Shown: positions 1,242 through 50,767 of the stretch, piece by piece | Layout: every line of letters starts with the position of its first letter | Numbering within the stretch: position 1 is the stretch's first letter | Assembly: GCA_944378105.1 (NCBI GenBank) | Contig: CALWGC010000023.1 | Span: forward strand, 1-64,000 | Origin: an uncultured Clostridia bacterium | GTDB lineage: Bacteria; Bacillota; Clostridia; Lachnospirales; Anaerotignaceae | Direction of reading: 5' to 3' | DNA: 64,000 nucleotides | The notes under the pieces: generated by a model | The model's database searches: none | Told to the model about the DNA's origin: nothing | The model's input: only the letters and a program-made list of their open reading frames with translations | Program-made: the position numbers and the translations under genes

Positions 1242-4200
1242 TTATGCTTCTTGCTGTGCAGCCAGACGTTTGTAGTTTTCCAGTCTTTCTTTTGCATCTG
1301 CTTCACTCTTTGCAAAGAGTTCTTCTGCAATTTCAGGGAAGGTACGCAGCAGAGAGCTGTAACGTACTTCGCCACGGATGAAATCCTGGAAGGAGCCGGT
1401 AGGCTCTTTGGAGTCGAGGGTGAATGGGTTTTTGCCCTCTTTCTTCAAGTCTGGGTTGAAGCGATACATATGCCAGTAGCCACATTCCACGGCTTTTTTG
1501 ATTTCAGCCTGGGCCCCTGCCATCTTAATGCCATGGTTGATACATGGGGCATAGCCGATGATAAGGGATGGGCCGTCATATTTTTCTGCTTCCAACAACG
1601 CTTTCACCAACTGACCTTGGTTTGCGCCCATGGCCACCTGAGCCACATACACATAACCATAGCTCATGGCCATCATGCCCAAGTCTTTTTTCTTCACCCG
1701 TTTACCGGATGCAGCAAACTGGGCCACGGCTGCCGTTGGGGTTGCCTTGGAGGACTGACCGCCGGTGTTGGAATATACTTCGGTATCGAATACGAATACG
1801 TTCACATCTTCGCCGCTGGCCAGTACATGGTCCAAACCGCCGTAACCGATGTCGTAAGCCCAACCGTCGCCGCCGAAGATCCACTGGCTCTTTTTGGCCA
1901 ACTGGTCTTTGTTTTTCAGCACTTCATCGATGATGGCCTGTGCTTCGGCGTTGGAACCGTCATAGTTTTCCAACAGAGCAACCAGATTTTTCGTTGCTTC
2001 TTTGTTGGCTTCGCCATCTTTCATGGTAGCAATCCAGGCATCGATGGTTTCGGTCATCATGGTGCAGCCTTGGATTTCTTTCAAAGCTTCCAGTTTGGCT
2101 TTCAGGCCTTCTCTCATCTGGCGCACGGCGATGGCCATACCCAGACCAAATTCGGCATTATCTTCAAACAAGGAGTTTGCCCAAGCGGGGCCTTTGCCTT
2201 CTTTGTTGGTGGTGTATGGGGTGGAAGGTGCGGAACCGCCCCAGATGGAGGAGCAGCCGGTGGCGTTGGCAATATACATTCTTTCGCCAAAGAGCTGGGT
2301 AATCAGTTTGGCGTAAGGCGTTTCACCACAGCCGGCGCAAGCGCCGCTAAATTCCAGCAAAGGCTGCACAAACTGGCTGCCTTTGACGCTTTCTTTGCTC
2401 ATTACCTTTTTCTCGGAAACGTTGGAAACGGCATAATCCCAGTTTTCGATTTCTTTTTGCTGGGTAGCAGCCGGTTTCATGATGAGCGCTTTCTTTGGTG
2501 CAGGGCAAACATTGGCGCAGCTACCGCAGCCCAAGCAATCCAATGCAGAAACTTGTACTTTAAACAGCAACCCTGCCATATCTTTGCCCTTGGCAGCTAC
2601 ACCGCCAAAACCGGCTGGTGCTGCTTTTTGTTCTGCTTCGTCCAACAAATAAGGACGGATGGCAGCATGTGGGCAAACGAAGGAGCACTGGTTACACTGG
2701 ATACAGTTTTCGGCCTGCCATTCTGGCAAGTCTACAGCCACACCACGTTTTTCGTAAGCAGCGGTGCCCTGTGGGAAGGTACCGTCTTCGCGGCCTTTGA
2801 AGGCGCTGACAGGCAACTGGTCACCTTTTTGAGCATTGATTGGTTCCACCACGTCGCGGATAAAGGCAGGTACTTCTTTTTTAGCCACAGGTGCATCTTC
2901 TGCCGTTTTCCAAGCAGCAGGAATTTCCACTTTCTTGGCGCCATTGACACCTTGATCCACGGCGGCATAGTTCATATTGAGGATTTCTTCGCCTTTTTTG
3001 CCATAGCTTTTCTTGATGGCGGCTTTCATATAGTCCACGGCTTCCTCGATTGGGATGATGTTGGCCAGTTTGAAGAAAGCAGCCTGCAACACGGAGTTGA
3101 CACGGTTACCCAAACCGATTTCTTTGGCAATGGCAGTACCATTGATGGTATAGAAATTGATGTTGTTTTCTGCAAAATACCGTTTCATGGCAGCTGGCAA
3201 ATGTTGATCCAATTCTGCTTCGCTCCATTCGGTGTTCAGCAAGAAGGTGCCGCCTGGGTTCAATTCGGAATACATATCATAGAGGTTCACATATTCCTGT
3301 TTATGGCAGGCCACAAAGTCGGCCGTTTTTACCAGATAAGTGGAGCGGATTGGTTTTTTGCCAAAACGCAGGTGGCTTTGGGTGATACCGCCGCTCTTTT
3401 TGGAGTCATAGGAGAAGTAGGCCTGGGCGTACATATCCGTATGGTCCCCAATGATTTTGATGGAGTTTTTGTTGGCGCCAACGGTACCGTCGGAACCAAG
3501 GCCCCAGAATTTGCAAGCAATGGTGCCGTCGCCTTCGGTGACGTTGACTTCTTTACCCACAGGCAAAGACAGATTGGTCACGTCGTCTACGATACCAATG
3601 GTAAAGTGCTGTACTGGGTTTTCTGCTTTCAAGTTTTCGTATACGGCAATGAACTGGGCAGGGGTTACGTCCTTGGAGCCCAAGCCATAGCGTCCAGCCA
3701 CAACCATAGGCTGATCTTTGGCTTCAAACATAGCCGTGCAGACATCCTGGTACAAAGGTTCGCCCAAAGCGCCTGGTTCTTTGGTTCTGTCCAAAACGGC
3801 GATTTTTTTGGCGGTAGCCGGGATGGCGGCCAAGAGATGTTTGGCAGAGAAAGGACGATAGAGGTGTACTTTCACCAAACCAACTTTTTCGCCTTTGGCC
3901 ATCAAGTAATCGATGGTTTCTTCGATGGCTTCGCAGGCAGAGCCCATGGCAATGATGATGCGGTCTGCATCGGGAGCGCCATAGTAGTTAAAGAGTTTGT
4001 AGTCACGGCCAGTCAATTTGCTGATTTCGGCCATATATTTTTCGGTGACGCCCACGATATTTTCATAGTATGGGTTGCAGGCTTCTCTGGCCTGGAAGAA
4101 AATATCTGGGTTTTGTGCCGTACCGCGCAGCACAGGATGTTCTGGGTTCAAGGAACGACGTTTGAAGTCGTTGACTGCATCCAGATTGGTGATTTTTTTC

Positions 4201-5171: not shown

Positions 5172-5615
5172 TTAGGCTTGGGAAGAGCGGTCACAACTTT
5201 GTTTTTGCCGCAGCGCATCCAACACCACATCCACCGCTTCGTCAATCATCACCGGCAAAGGATCGCCGGTCATCCCCACCACATATAAGCCACAGCGTTT
5301 CATGGGGATCAAAATTTTCATGGCGTCGCTTTCGCTGATGGCCTGGGCCATGGCCGGGGACAATTCGCCAAACATGGCATTGGCCGACAAAATACCAAGG
5401 CTACCCAAAATGATATCGGCATGGCGGGCATTATGGCAAACGGCGTTTTCCCCCGTGGCGATGTGAACGGCGCCGGCTTTCAGCATGGCCGTTGTGGCAA
5501 TGGAGTTGGTGCCCACGGCCACCAACAGGTGTTCTGGCGGCAAGAGCGGTTTCAGTTTTTCGATGATGGTTTTTCCAATGCCGCCGCCTTGGCCATCAAT
5601 GACTAAGATCCTCAT
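5172..5615 (-). CDS. DUF3842 family protein
   Basis: A 147-residue cytoplasmic protein of a family common in Clostridia with no established function. It opens with MRILVIDGQGGGIGK, a glycine-rich nucleotide-binding-like loop at residues 8-15, and continues with an alternating beta/alpha pattern (LVAVGTNSIATTAML, HADIILGSLGI). The tail, CDRSSQA, is poorly structured. The start codon lies 1 base after the stop of the upstream phosphoesterase gene, so the two are probably translationally coupled. It is the last gene of a three-gene operon beginning with a RelQ-type alarmone synthetase. The family call rests on overall resemblance; the nucleotide-binding role is inference. Confidence 0.8.
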   Translation of the reverse strand: MRILVIDGQGGGIGKTIIEKLKPLLPPEHLLVAVGTNSIATTAMLKAGAVHIATGENAVCHNARHADIILGSLGILSANAMFGELSPAMAQAISESDAMKILIPMKRCGLYVVGMTGDPLPVMIDEAVDVVLDALRQKQSCDRSSQA

Positions 5616-5616
5616 G

Positions 5617-6321
5617 TCAATCCATCCTTTCCTTTGTCCAAATCCGTTTTGGCGCAAAGCGGAGATAATCGGCAGAAACCAGATGCAGCTGCATCCCCTG
5701 CCACGTTCCTTCCACCACCTGCGCAAAATTTGCTTCCCCATGGACATGCCCAAACACCACCGTCTGGACGCCGGCTTGTTGCAGCACATCCATCATGGCC
5801 GTGTTTGTCTGTTCCGCAAGAAGGGGCGGAAAATGGAGCATGGCAATCAACTGGCCCTTTCCCAAGGCTTTGGCAAAAGACAGCGATAGCCGCAGACGCT
5901 CCACTTCCCGATGGTAAATTTTTTCGTCTTCTTTTGTGGTTTGTTCCCCCGGCAAGAGCCACCCGCGGCAGCCACAAAGGACCACATCCTCCACCAGCAG
6001 GGCATCGTTTTGGAGAAACTGTAAATCCGCATACCGGCGGCGCAGACGGGAAACGCTGCTCCACCAATAGTCGTGGTTTCCCCGCAGCAGCACTTTTTTG
6101 CCCGGCAAAGCCGCCAAAAAATCCAGATCCGCCTTGGCCTCCTCTTCCCGCATGGCCCAAGAGATGTCGCCTGGCAGTAGCACCGTGTCTTCCTCACTAA
6201 CTACGGCGCACCAATTTTTTTCTATTTTTTCTGGATGGTTTTCCCAAAGAGGGCCAAAAATATCCATGGGCTTTTCCTGTTTTCCCGGCAAATGTAAATC
6301 CGCCAGCGCAAAAATGGCCAT
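5617..6321 (-). CDS. Metallophosphoesterase (calcineurin-like)
   Basis: A 234-residue enzyme with all dinuclear-metal motifs in order: DLH (residues 8-10), GDISW (about 51-55), GNHDYWW (about 80-86), HFPP (about 163) and GHVHG (about 191-195). Such enzymes hydrolyse phosphomono- or diesters; the substrate cannot be told from sequence. It begins 4 bases after the stop of the alarmone synthetase gene and nearly abuts the DUF3842 gene. The linkage to a (p)ppGpp synthetase might suggest nucleotide metabolism, but that is inference. Confidence 0.92.
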   Translation of the reverse strand: MAIFALADLHLPGKQEKPMDIFGPLWENHPEKIEKNWCAVVSEEDTVLLPGDISWAMREEEAKADLDFLAALPGKKVLLRGNHDYWWSSVSRLRRRYADLQFLQNDALLVEDVVLCGCRGWLLPGEQTTKEDEKIYHREVERLRLSLSFAKALGKGQLIAMLHFPPLLAEQTNTAMMDVLQQAGVQTVVFGHVHGEANFAQVVEGTWQGMQLHLVSADYLRFAPKRIWTKERMD

Positions 6322-29529: not shown

Positions 29530-30369
29530 ATGGCAGATGCAATTCGTTTGACTGATTTTTTTCCAAAAAAAAGCTCTCAAACTTCTCCTCAATCTATTTT
29601 ATCCGTGCCAGTGCAACAAATTAAGCCAAGTCCCAACCAATCGCGGATGCATTATTATAGTGCCGACTTGGAAGAACTGGTGCAAAGTGTGAAAGAAATG
29701 GGCGTGTTACAGCCGGTGACGGTGCGGGCCATGGGGGAAAACCAATATGAGCTGGTCTGTGGAGACCGGCGGTTACGGGCGGCCAAGCTGGCTGGTTTGG
29801 CAGAAATTCCGGCCCTGGTACTGGAAGCCAACGACGGCAAAAGCGCCATGGTTTCTTTGACAGAAAACCTACAGCGGCGAAACCTACATTTCTTTGAAGA
29901 AGCTTCTGCCTTTCAAAGCATCATCAAAGAATATGGGTTTACCCAGGAAGAGGCAGCAAAAAAAATGGGGCGCAGCCAATCTTCCATTGCCAACAAGCTG
30001 CGTTTATTAAGGCTTAACGACGAAGTAAAACGGCTCATCATGGAGCACCAGTTGACCGAGCGCCACGCCCGGGCTTTTTTACGGATTCCCGACCCGGAGG
30101 CCTTGATGCAGGTAGTCAACCAAGTAATTGTGGATGAGCTGAACGTCAAGAAAACAGAAGAATTGGTGTCGGAAACCCTTTCTGCCCTGCGGGACAAGCT
30201 GGTGCAAAGCCACGATCAAAAAATCAAAGGCTCTTTGGGCGATATCCGTTTGATCACCAACACGGTGCGGCAAACGGTGGCGGTCATCCGGCAGGCCGGC
30301 ATTACGGCAGAATATGAGCTGGAAGAACAGGCCGACCGTTGTGAGGTAAAGATACATATTCTGCTCTAA
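29530..30369 (+). CDS. noc: Noc-like ParB paralogue (nucleoid occlusion protein)
   Basis: A 279-residue ParB-family protein distinct from the parB product above. It has SVPVQQIKPSPNQSRMHYYS, LVCGDRRLRAAKLAGL (CTP motif as GDRRLRA), ENLQRRNLHFFEEASAF, and the helix-turn-helix FTQEEAAKKMGRSQSSIANK. Noc proteins bind DNA near the origin and block septum formation over the nucleoid. The N-terminus (MADAIRLTDFFPKK) could be an amphipathic membrane-targeting segment, as in Bacillus Noc. The location between parAB and gyrA fits. I saw no ATTTCCCGGGAAAT-type Noc site in the window. Confidence 0.85.
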   Translation: MADAIRLTDFFPKKSSQTSPQSILSVPVQQIKPSPNQSRMHYYSADLEELVQSVKEMGVLQPVTVRAMGENQYELVCGDRRLRAAKLAGLAEIPALVLEANDGKSAMVSLTENLQRRNLHFFEEASAFQSIIKEYGFTQEEAAKKMGRSQSSIANKLRLLRLNDEVKRLIMEHQLTERHARAFLRIPDPEALMQVVNQVIVDELNVKKTEELVSETLSALRDKLVQSHDQKIKGSLGDIRLITNTVRQTVAVIRQAGITAEYELEEQADRCEVKIHILL

Positions 30370-30492
30370 AAGCGAATCCTTTTCTTACAACGCGCCTTCT
30401 TTCTCCTTCCTGGCTGCTATCCACTTTTTTTGCTGCCTGTTCCTTTCTTTTCCACTTCTTTTCCCTCTTGTTTTCCACTTGGTGGATCAAAA

Positions 30493-49078: not shown

Positions 49079-49650
49079 TGACGAAAAATATTTTGCTGGT
49101 GGGCGTTGGTGGTCAAGGGACCATTTTGACGTCGAAAATTCTTTCCCGCGGCTTTATGGAGCAGGGGTATGATGTGAAGATGTCGGAAATCCATGGCATG
49201 AGCCAGCGGGGCGGTACGGTGACTACCCAAATTCGCTTTGGCGAAAAGGTCTATTCTCCTGTCATTGAAACGGGTACGGCCGACATCATTGTGGCCTTTG
49301 AAAAAAGCGAAGCACTGCGGTATTTGCACTATTTGAAAAAAGACGGTATTTTGGTGGTCAATGACTATGAAATCCAGCCGGTGACGGTGGCCATTGGAGC
49401 CGAGACGTATCCTGAGGGGCTTTTGGAAAGCTACAAAGAAACGGTGGAAAAGACGTATGTCATCGATGCCTTTCACAAGGCCGAAGCGCTGGGCAGCACG
49501 AAAGCGATGAATATTGTGCTGCTTGGGGCACTGGTGCGGATGCTGGAACTGACGGACATCGATTGGAAAGCATTGGTGGCAGAAGAAGTGCCGCCAAAGG
49601 CTGTGGAGATGAACTTGAAAGCCTTTGAAGCAGGGTTTGAAGTGAAGTAA
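49078..49650 (+). CDS. iorB: Indolepyruvate:ferredoxin oxidoreductase, beta subunit
   Basis: The gamma-type catalytic-domain partner of IorA, 190 residues: NILLVGVGGQGTILTSKILS, KMSEIHGMSQRGGTVTTQIR and TKAMNIVLLGALV. It overlaps iorA by one base, so the subunits are coupled. Implies fermentation of aromatic amino acids or reverse flux into them. Confidence 0.96.
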   Translation: MTKNILLVGVGGQGTILTSKILSRGFMEQGYDVKMSEIHGMSQRGGTVTTQIRFGEKVYSPVIETGTADIIVAFEKSEALRYLHYLKKDGILVVNDYEIQPVTVAIGAETYPEGLLESYKETVEKTYVIDAFHKAEALGSTKAMNIVLLGALVRMLELTDIDWKALVAEEVPPKAVEMNLKAFEAGFEVK

Positions 49651-49715
49651 GGAGAAAGAAAATAGAAAAAGTTTTTTGATTTTTCTCTTTTGTTCTTCGG
49701 CTGGGCGTGGAAACC

Positions 49716-50016
49716 GTGGGGGAGGAAATGCTCAGAAACTAATTTTCCCTTCGGGAAAACCGTTCCTCTCGGCGGCAATCGTCGCTCACTTAGCAATCCC
49801 ATGGATTGCCCTGGTTTGCTCCTCATAAGCGCCGCCTCGCTCTACTTCTCGGTTGCGAGGCCCGCAATTCCTCCCCCACACCCCCTTCTTTTTGGGCACG
49901 CTTCGTGCAGTGGCACCCTTTCGCTTTACTGTGGCGGCGTGGTACCGCCCCTTCGGTCTTGCGGCGGCAGATGGAAGCAAAGACACTGTCGCCAAGCGCC
50001 AGTACACCGAAGGGGC
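49716..50016. ncRNA. Candidate structured RNA element in the iorB-flavin reductase gap
   Basis: The 485-base gap contains a GC-rich stretch dense in perfect inverted repeats. A long closing helix, GTGGGGGAGGAA-a-TGC (49716-49731) with GCA-a-TTCCTCCCCCAC (49864-49879), encloses TTTTCCC/GGGAAAA (49743-49759), GGCGGC/GCCGCC (49771-49836) with nested GCAATCC/GGATTGC (49793-49809), and CTCGC/GCGAG (49836-49859). To the right lie GCACG/CGTGC (49896-49908), GGCGG/CCGCC (49933-49949) and GCCCCTTCGGT/ACCGAAGGGGC (49947-50016) around GGCGGCAG/CTGTCGCC (49963-49993). No promoter, strand or known family was identified. Open frames here look non-coding. Confidence 0.5.
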
Positions 50017-50135
50017 TGGTGAAAGGAAGGAAAAGCCTTTGGTTACTGTTTGGTTGTTCACTTTTCAGCTAGAGGCGAAGGAAACAAAAAGCATCTTTTT
50101 TCATTTCTCATCATTCAGTAGAAAGGAGTCTTCCT

Positions 50136-50702
50136 ATGGAACAAAAAGACGTTTGGAAACCGGGAACGGTGCTTTATCCCGTGCCGGCCGCCATGGTTAC
50201 GGTGGGGGATATGGATGGAGAAAAAAATATCATCACCATTGCCTGGACCGGCACCATCAACTCCGATCCGGCCATGACCTATATTTCCGTGCGCCCAGAA
50301 CGCCATTCCTATGAAATGATCAAACAATCCGGCGAATTTGTCATTAATCTGACCACCAAGGACTTGGTGAAAGCCTGTGATTTTTGCGGCGTCAAAAGCG
50401 GTCGGGATTTGGACAAATTCAAAGAATGCGGCTTAACCGCCCAGCGGGCCACCAAAGTGAAGGCACCGCTCATTGCCGAAAGCCCGGTCAACATTGAATG
50501 CGTGGTCAAAGACATCATTCCTTTGGGCAGCCATCATATGTTCTTGGCCCAAGTGGTGGCCGTCAATGTCAGCAGCAAATGGATGGATGAAACGGGAAAA
50601 TTCCATTTCAACGATTCCAAGCCCATCTGCTATTCCCACGGCGAATATTTTGAAGTGGGCGAAAGCTTAGGCAAATTTGGTTTTTCTGTTCGGAAAAAAT
50701 AA
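50136..50702 (+). CDS. Flavin reductase / flavoredoxin family protein
   Basis: A 188-residue split-barrel FMN protein: YPVPAAMVTVGDMDGEKNII, TIAWTGTINSDPAMTYISVR, SGEFVINLTTKDLVKACDF, CGVKSGRDLDKF, APLIAESPVNIEC and HHMFLAQVVAVNVS. These are the hallmarks of the flavoredoxin group in anaerobes, which carry electrons or reduce flavin. AAAGGAG precedes the ATG. The physiological partner is unknown. Confidence 0.92.
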   Translation: MEQKDVWKPGTVLYPVPAAMVTVGDMDGEKNIITIAWTGTINSDPAMTYISVRPERHSYEMIKQSGEFVINLTTKDLVKACDFCGVKSGRDLDKFKECGLTAQRATKVKAPLIAESPVNIECVVKDIIPLGSHHMFLAQVVAVNVSSKWMDETGKFHFNDSKPICYSHGEYFEVGESLGKFGFSVRKK

Positions 50703-50707
50703 AAAGA

Positions 50708-50765
50708 AAAAAACCCTGTGCAACAAAAACGAGCAAAGCCCGTCTTGTTTGCCACAGGGTTTTTT
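50708..50765. terminator. Bidirectional terminator between the flavin reductase gene and spoIIQ
   Basis: AAAAAACCCTGTG / CACAGGGTTTTTT, a perfect 13-bp stem around a partly paired 32-base loop. Confidence 0.88.
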
Positions 50766-50767
50766 GT

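Follow-up and report, generated by a model that had tools for sequence, protein, structure and literature searches.

What kind of element is the GC-rich, highly folded sequence that separates two metabolic genes in the genome of an uncultured Clostridia bacterium? The preliminary description of this locus, positions 49716-50016 of the 64,000-nucleotide stretch of DNA analysed here (the window), treated it as one structured noncoding element, possibly a riboswitch-like leader or a dispersed repeat, whose strand was left open and which matched no familiar family. It also proposed a search of the whole genome and of related genomes, and the outcome of that search shapes the answer given below.

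Folding and gene content of the stretch

The stretch lies in a gap of 485 bases between a POR-domain (iorB-like) gene ending at 49650 and a flavin-reductase-like gene starting at 50136, both on the plus strand, in agreement with the neighbours named earlier as iorB and flavin reductase. Its GC content (0.55-0.64) exceeds that of the rest of the gap (0.35-0.44), as had been noticed. The view that it holds no credible gene is also upheld: open reading frames across the stretch have no Pfam match above the cut-off and no recognisable gene was found. Rfam 15, applied to the stretch with strict and relaxed settings, gave chance matches only, with nothing above the gathering cut-off, and so supplied no family either; on the window and on the loci of the two elements A and B introduced below, it reported just rRNA, tRNA and one unrelated T-box. 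The stretch matched nothing in plasmid and phage collections. Three candidate resemblances were set aside: a T-box-like GTGGTACCGCC near 49938, which Rfam did not confirm; a match in genome G004 to 49950-49974, which falls inside a coding gene with an FGLAAADG motif and was taken as chance; and a match at G000:C1:2831, which is a lone hairpin.

The predicted folding energy is -131.5 kcal/mol on the plus strand (z -5.3) and -131.7 kcal/mol on the minus strand (z -4.1), and none of 200 dinucleotide shuffles was as low on either. The helices named in the preliminary description are present, including that between GTGGGGGAGGAA (49716-49727) and TTCCTCCCCCAC (49868-49879), which one mismatch extends to GTGGGGGAGGAAATGC and GCAATTCCTCCCCCAC. 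A slightly wider segment, 49700-50040, gave z scores of -3.6 and -2.8. Among 32 background windows of 300 nt, each compared with just 15 shuffles, the mean z was -0.88 (sd 1.5) and one window reached -6.4. Since these background windows weaken the argument from folding, the folding of the stretch taken alone is only suggestive, and it is covariation among relatives that makes the structure of A and B firm.

Elsewhere in the window, the flavin reductase gene and a convergent M23 peptidase gene are separated by a likely two-way terminator at 50707-50766, AAAAAACCCTGTG...CACAGGGTTTTTT, an inverted repeat that looks perfect and includes runs of A and of T.

A composite of nested repeats

When the window's own genome and 60 relatives were searched, different parts of the stretch were found to match at different places. 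The stretch is thus a composite of repeats in a fast-changing gap and not one RNA. The earlier suggestion of a dispersed repeat is borne out, with further copies of B in the window's genome and of both A and B in relatives; the structured noncoding nature of the sequence stands, whilst the single element resolves into two repeat families, one nested in the other, and a separate hairpin. The parts are as follows.

49695-49736, plus strand: left part of element A, comprising the head CTTCGGCTGGGCGTGGAAACC, the stem arm GTGGGGGAGGAA (49716-49727) and the start of the conserved loop ATGCTCAGA; assigned by homology to A copies in G001 and by stem covariation over 16 copies.
About 49737-49850 (outer limits estimated), minus strand: element B, in the loop of A; model match 49740-49840.
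49743-49759, minus strand: hairpin 2 of B, TTTTCCCTTCGGGAAAA, kept in alignments A5 and A6.
49771-49836, minus strand: hairpin 1 of B, with the outer stem GGCGGC (49771-49776) / GCCGCC (49831-49836).
49778-49791 with 49811-49827, minus strand: purine-rich internal loop of hairpin 1, enclosing the inner hairpin 49793-49799 / 49803-49809.
49851-49917, plus strand: right part of element A, comprising GGTTGCGAGGCCCGCAA, the stem arm TTCCTCCCCCAC (49868-49879) and then CACCCCC...TTGGGCACGC...GTGGCACC.
49947-50016, strand unassigned: hairpin C, assigned by folding, with 11-bp arms GCCCCTTCGGT (49947-49957) and ACCGAAGGGGC (50006-50016) around an inner stem.

The nesting is evident from two comparisons. 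On contig C61 of the sister genome G001 (30264-30370), the counterparts of 49697-49736 and 49854-49917 are only two bases apart and the middle, some 110 bases, is absent; the right part of A is 92% identical to this contig over 65 bases. The middle of the stretch, in turn, matches two tandem copies in the window's own genome, on contig C33, just 3' of a 23S rRNA gene. Because A is contiguous in G001 and the middle occurs elsewhere beside 23S, B sits inside the loop of A, although the position of the A-B junction is not fixed at the level of single bases. The window copy of B scores 98.7 bits against model R2, which includes that copy, and 76.3 bits against R3. Hairpin C has no known relative, and no second copy was found in the window's own genome.

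The same gap in G001 contains A in inverted orientation and lacks B, whilst the flanking genes are 90-92% identical in DNA. This shows a gap that evolves by rearrangement, unlike a conserved leader.

Element A

A covariance model built from seven copies of A identified five copies in G001 and six in G002. The window's genome has a single known A, the interrupted copy, which the model does not recognise in full. Copies were also found in G328, in G014, which belongs to another genus of the family and carries A among phage head genes, and in G276, from another family of the order, where two copies in opposite orientation lie between argJ-like and argB-like genes (these gene names, like that of the phage head genes, were read from the sequences). 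The range of A takes in the sister species and two further genera, and an initial restriction to one genus, based on a loop pattern that gave single hits elsewhere, was dropped once the model had revealed real copies in G014, G276 and G328. Hits in G122, G211 and G335 were doubtful or negative.

In an alignment of 16 copies, each of the 10 stem pairs shows changes on both sides and 96% of cells pair; the covariation score is 0.760, as against 0.15-0.22 with the partner slid. The loop GCTCRRWGTTGCGAWG is nearly constant whilst the stem varies. A module CCCCC...TTGGSCACGC follows 3' of the stem in most copies, and its CCCCC...GGSCACGC portion is common to G014, G276 and G328. The core is about 45-50 bases long and occurs at most 5-6 times per genome. 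Two loci of A, one after a Nudix gene and one after a stalk-domain gene, are common to G001 and G002; the stalk-domain locus of the window's genome lacks A. That A exists elsewhere without B, as an independent repeat, is the opposite of what would speak against nesting. The A loci of G276 and G328 matched nothing in plasmid and phage collections, a scan of viral contigs with the A pattern gave one match that model R1 did not report, and a literature search for the letters of the loop returned nothing relevant.

Some further features of A loci deserve mention. The head of A, in the window (49695-49727) and in the G001 copies, contains a possible hairpin, CCTTGCGG...CCGCAAGG, which has bases in common with the A stem, so that the two are mutually exclusive; changes in its arms appear matched across copies. 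At locus L119 of G014 (1489-1532), A lies in the phage head gene cluster, between a connector-like gene and the next, and A may move into phages as B does. The locus downstream of the stalk-domain gene on G000:C11 (L142) and locus L007 hold several small palindromes, GTTGCGAAACGCAACAAG, which recur in the counterpart gap of G001 and form another short repeat family.

Fold, covariation and strand of element B

B measures about 110 bases. In its own sense, which in the window corresponds to the minus strand, it folds into two hairpins, the first of which is built from a variable outer stem, an internal loop and an inner hairpin. In three copies, 10 of 10 outer-stem pairs already differ on both sides. 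When 39 distinct copies are compared, changes on both sides occur at 32 of 33 pairs, with 382 such cells as against 119 in shuffles, and the covariation score is 0.702 compared with 0.10-0.15 when slid; the alignment was fitted to its own model, which inflates the pair counts, but the gap to the controls is still very large. Compensatory changes thus preserve the helices of both A and B, in keeping with the structured character first proposed. The fold of B is strongly conserved yet matches no known RNA family in Rfam.

As read from the sequences, pairing of TATGAGGAACGAACC with AAGTGAGTGACGAA across the internal loop would allow three tandem G.A/A.G steps, with Watson-Crick pairs between them; some copies have Watson-Crick pairs in place of the middle G.A step. 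For 41 of 43 distinct copies the B strand folds more stably than the complementary strand, by a mean of 7.1 kcal/mol, and G.U oppositions outnumber A.C oppositions by 52 to 22, although fitting to the model favours G.U somewhat. Strand stability and the excess of G.U together point to selection acting on one single strand of B, be it RNA or single-stranded DNA. The question of strand is thereby answered for B: in the window the structure belongs to the minus strand, and B runs antisense to the two neighbouring genes.

Distribution and mobility of element B

A three-copy model of B was used to search 392 genomes under strict filters, with which copies can be missed, and many of these genomes are draft or metagenome assemblies, so that absence is weak evidence where they are incomplete. 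Matches were obtained in 10 further genomes of the family, spanning five genera; none was found in the sister genomes G001 and G002. Hits of 58 bases in another family (L158, L159) lack the core and were taken as chance. The loci of named Clostridia retrieved by way of iorB were without B. Viral contigs scanned with A and B patterns gave no match in three cases, and 17 matches to the G012-type end were all without B.

The richest locus is a 6.5-kb contig of G012, C93, where 13 copies score above 50 bits and two more score lower, with both orientations represented. C93 is a prophage, its portal gene resembling phage records and uncultured phage contigs. Related phage contigs are contiguous where C93 has B, and B is absent from these relatives; at j9, the cleanest junction, the relative shows a gap of zero and C93 is longer by 119 bases. 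Since the C93 copies occupy sites that are uninterrupted in related phages, the sequences show that B moves. Two C93 copies in opposite orientations (locus L179, approximately 3790-3960 and 5430-5640) carry a segment richer in GC (ACCGCCCAAGAAAGGGCGGACTGCC...) in place of the inner hairpin or as an extension of it, which is probably another repeat lying within B.

The ends of B in G012 read ATTAGTGnA... and ...GAAAAAA(A)TTTC or ...GAAAAAATAAC, and copies in other genomes begin with a sequence like (A/G)TYAGYGA. Terminal inverted repeats of 15-30 bp were not found, the ends being ATTAGTGnATATTTTT... and ...GAAAAAAATTTC. There is no target duplication at j9, and two bases or an ambiguous number at the other junctions. 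Head-to-tail arrays occur, with six copies at a period near 119 on G012:C44 and pairs in G000 and G294. Copies are also found, in either orientation, between ordinary, unrelated genes. At locus L171 (G265:C5, 1501-1596 and 1662-1892), B is found between a T-box leader and the gene that the leader should control, on the opposite strand.

Element B and the rRNA genes

In G245 and G234, B precedes a 16S rRNA gene. The same flanks surround the copies in G030 and G278, where the G030 contig extends into the beginning of 16S, and ACAACCCATAGTCAATTC is an unvarying flank in all four. The position of B ahead of 16S is conserved in two genera other than that of the window. Farther upstream of the pre-16S copies lies a TTGAAAAC motif, which resembles the boxA of Firmicutes rRNA operons. 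The tandem pair located after 23S in the window's genome is followed by tRNA-Thr and tRNA-Met; this region matched plasmid and phage collections through the 23S gene only. A transcript of the structured strand is implied only for copies inside rRNA operons.

It could be argued from these positions that B is at root a functional element of pre-rRNA, concerned with antitermination, processing or assembly, that spread secondarily and left a stray copy in the window. The shared position and invariant flank before 16S, the tandem pair after 23S in the window's own genome, and the strand preference of B with its excess of G.U over A.C all favour this. Against it, copies in other genera are mostly placed between ordinary genes, in one orientation or the other, some are in prophage genes, and no B was found in the sister genomes G001 and G002. 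We regard a pre-rRNA origin as rather unlikely.

Y1 transposases as a possible mobiliser

A second explanation is that A and B are classical REP elements moved on single-stranded DNA by a Y1 (RAYT) transposase. Hairpins, intergenic and nested placement, tandem and inverted arrangements and the lack of a clear target duplication are all consistent with such a system, and Y1 genes are numerous in the B-rich G012. No linkage between the two was found, however. Y1 genes are absent from the window's genome (98.5% complete) and were not found in three other genomes with B (82-85% complete), and B does not adjoin any of 21 Y1-bearing loci examined in relatives. G030 has 59 Y1 transposase matches, many cut by contig ends, but a single B; its Y1 set is an expanded IS200-like element without link to B. 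The Y1 locus of G001, the only one read for A, lacks it. B, at some 110 bases, is moreover far longer than REPs of 20-40 bases (PMC3733652). Mobilisation by a Y1 transposase is accordingly judged unlikely.

Proposed explanation: a mobile repeat within a palindromic repeat

In our assessment B is most probably a mobile repeat of the non-autonomous kind that selection maintains as a folded single strand, and its window copy, inserted in a REP-like A, is probably passive. This reading draws on what was observed, namely homology, the nesting of B in A, covariation, B insertions where related phages are uninterrupted, and the pre-16S position in two genera. A is, on this view, a low-copy palindromic repeat of REP/BIME type, whose variable, covarying, GC-rich stem presents a conserved loop, and this loop most likely served as a landing site for B. 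B would have spread through the bacterial family, prophage genes included, and stayed in some rRNA operons. Selection in B would maintain the covarying outer stem, the purine-rich internal loop capable of tandem G.A pairs and the second hairpin, and the folded strand would be recognised by an enzyme. Copies in rRNA operons may be kept for a role in pre-rRNA, whilst the window copy is presumably passive and the composite probably without effect on its neighbours.

A bolder version, in which B is a mobile structured RNA and a bacterial counterpart of SINEs, with a tandem G.A core, a part in pre-rRNA in some genera and enzymatic copying into new sites including phage genes and repeat loops, seems decidedly improbable. 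The riboswitch-like leader of the preliminary description fares worse. A cis-regulatory RNA (riboswitch, attenuator or leader) for the flavin reductase gene would suit the upstream position, the strong structure and the head helix that excludes the stem of A, but A is reversed in the sister species, other copies of the elements lie by unrelated genes, B is antisense and Rfam offers no match, all of which make it very improbable. That the structure is a meaningless by-product of GC-rich sequence is barely credible, for although one of the 32 background windows, with few shuffles, also had a very low z, double changes have preserved the helices of A and B in different genera; for hairpin C alone this reading could still hold.

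Two repeat families now have working covariance models. B joins features that are rarely combined, namely covariation of the strength seen in functional RNAs, mobility documented by insertions in phage genes, and a conserved place by rRNA genes. Should the copies at rRNA genes prove to have a role, B would be a domesticated mobile element in the cell's most essential operon; should they have none, it would offer an unambiguous example of a transposable element whose defining feature is single-strand structure. There is also a warning for annotation, that intergenic structure should not be called regulatory RNA on strong covariation alone.

Comparison with known systems

REP/BIME sequences, and REPINs with RAYT (PMC3733652, PMC3116915, PMC2817692), are palindromic, dispersed, intergenic and arranged in inverted or tandem fashion, as are A and B, and it is these that A resembles most. 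REPs inserted within palindromes of another kind are also on record (PMC3733652). By contrast with REP/RAYT systems, A and B have few copies per genome and no linked Y1 gene, and no GTAG or CGTC tag was seen by eye in the copies read. A differs further in combining a conserved loop with a variable stem and in having a core of 45-50 bases without high copy number, and B in its much greater length and RNA-like core. Bacterial MITEs such as RUP, NEMIS, ERIC, Bcr1 and EFAR (PMC3733652) share with B a length within 70-300 bases, noncoding and dispersed character, folding and mobility, but B lacks their terminal inverted repeats of 15-30 bp and a clear target duplication.

Two broader surveys, each compared by description only, show further parallels. 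The candidate structured RNAs of the human microbiome (PMC8040213) were likewise discovered comparatively in gut bacteria and some are palindromic; A or B might be among those 3161 models, unrecognised as mobile. The stem-loop repeat families of 40 bacterial genomes (PMC2267715) are, like A and B, repeated, intergenic and united by a common predicted structure, whilst the strong covariation of B and its placement in rRNA leaders are specific to the present work.
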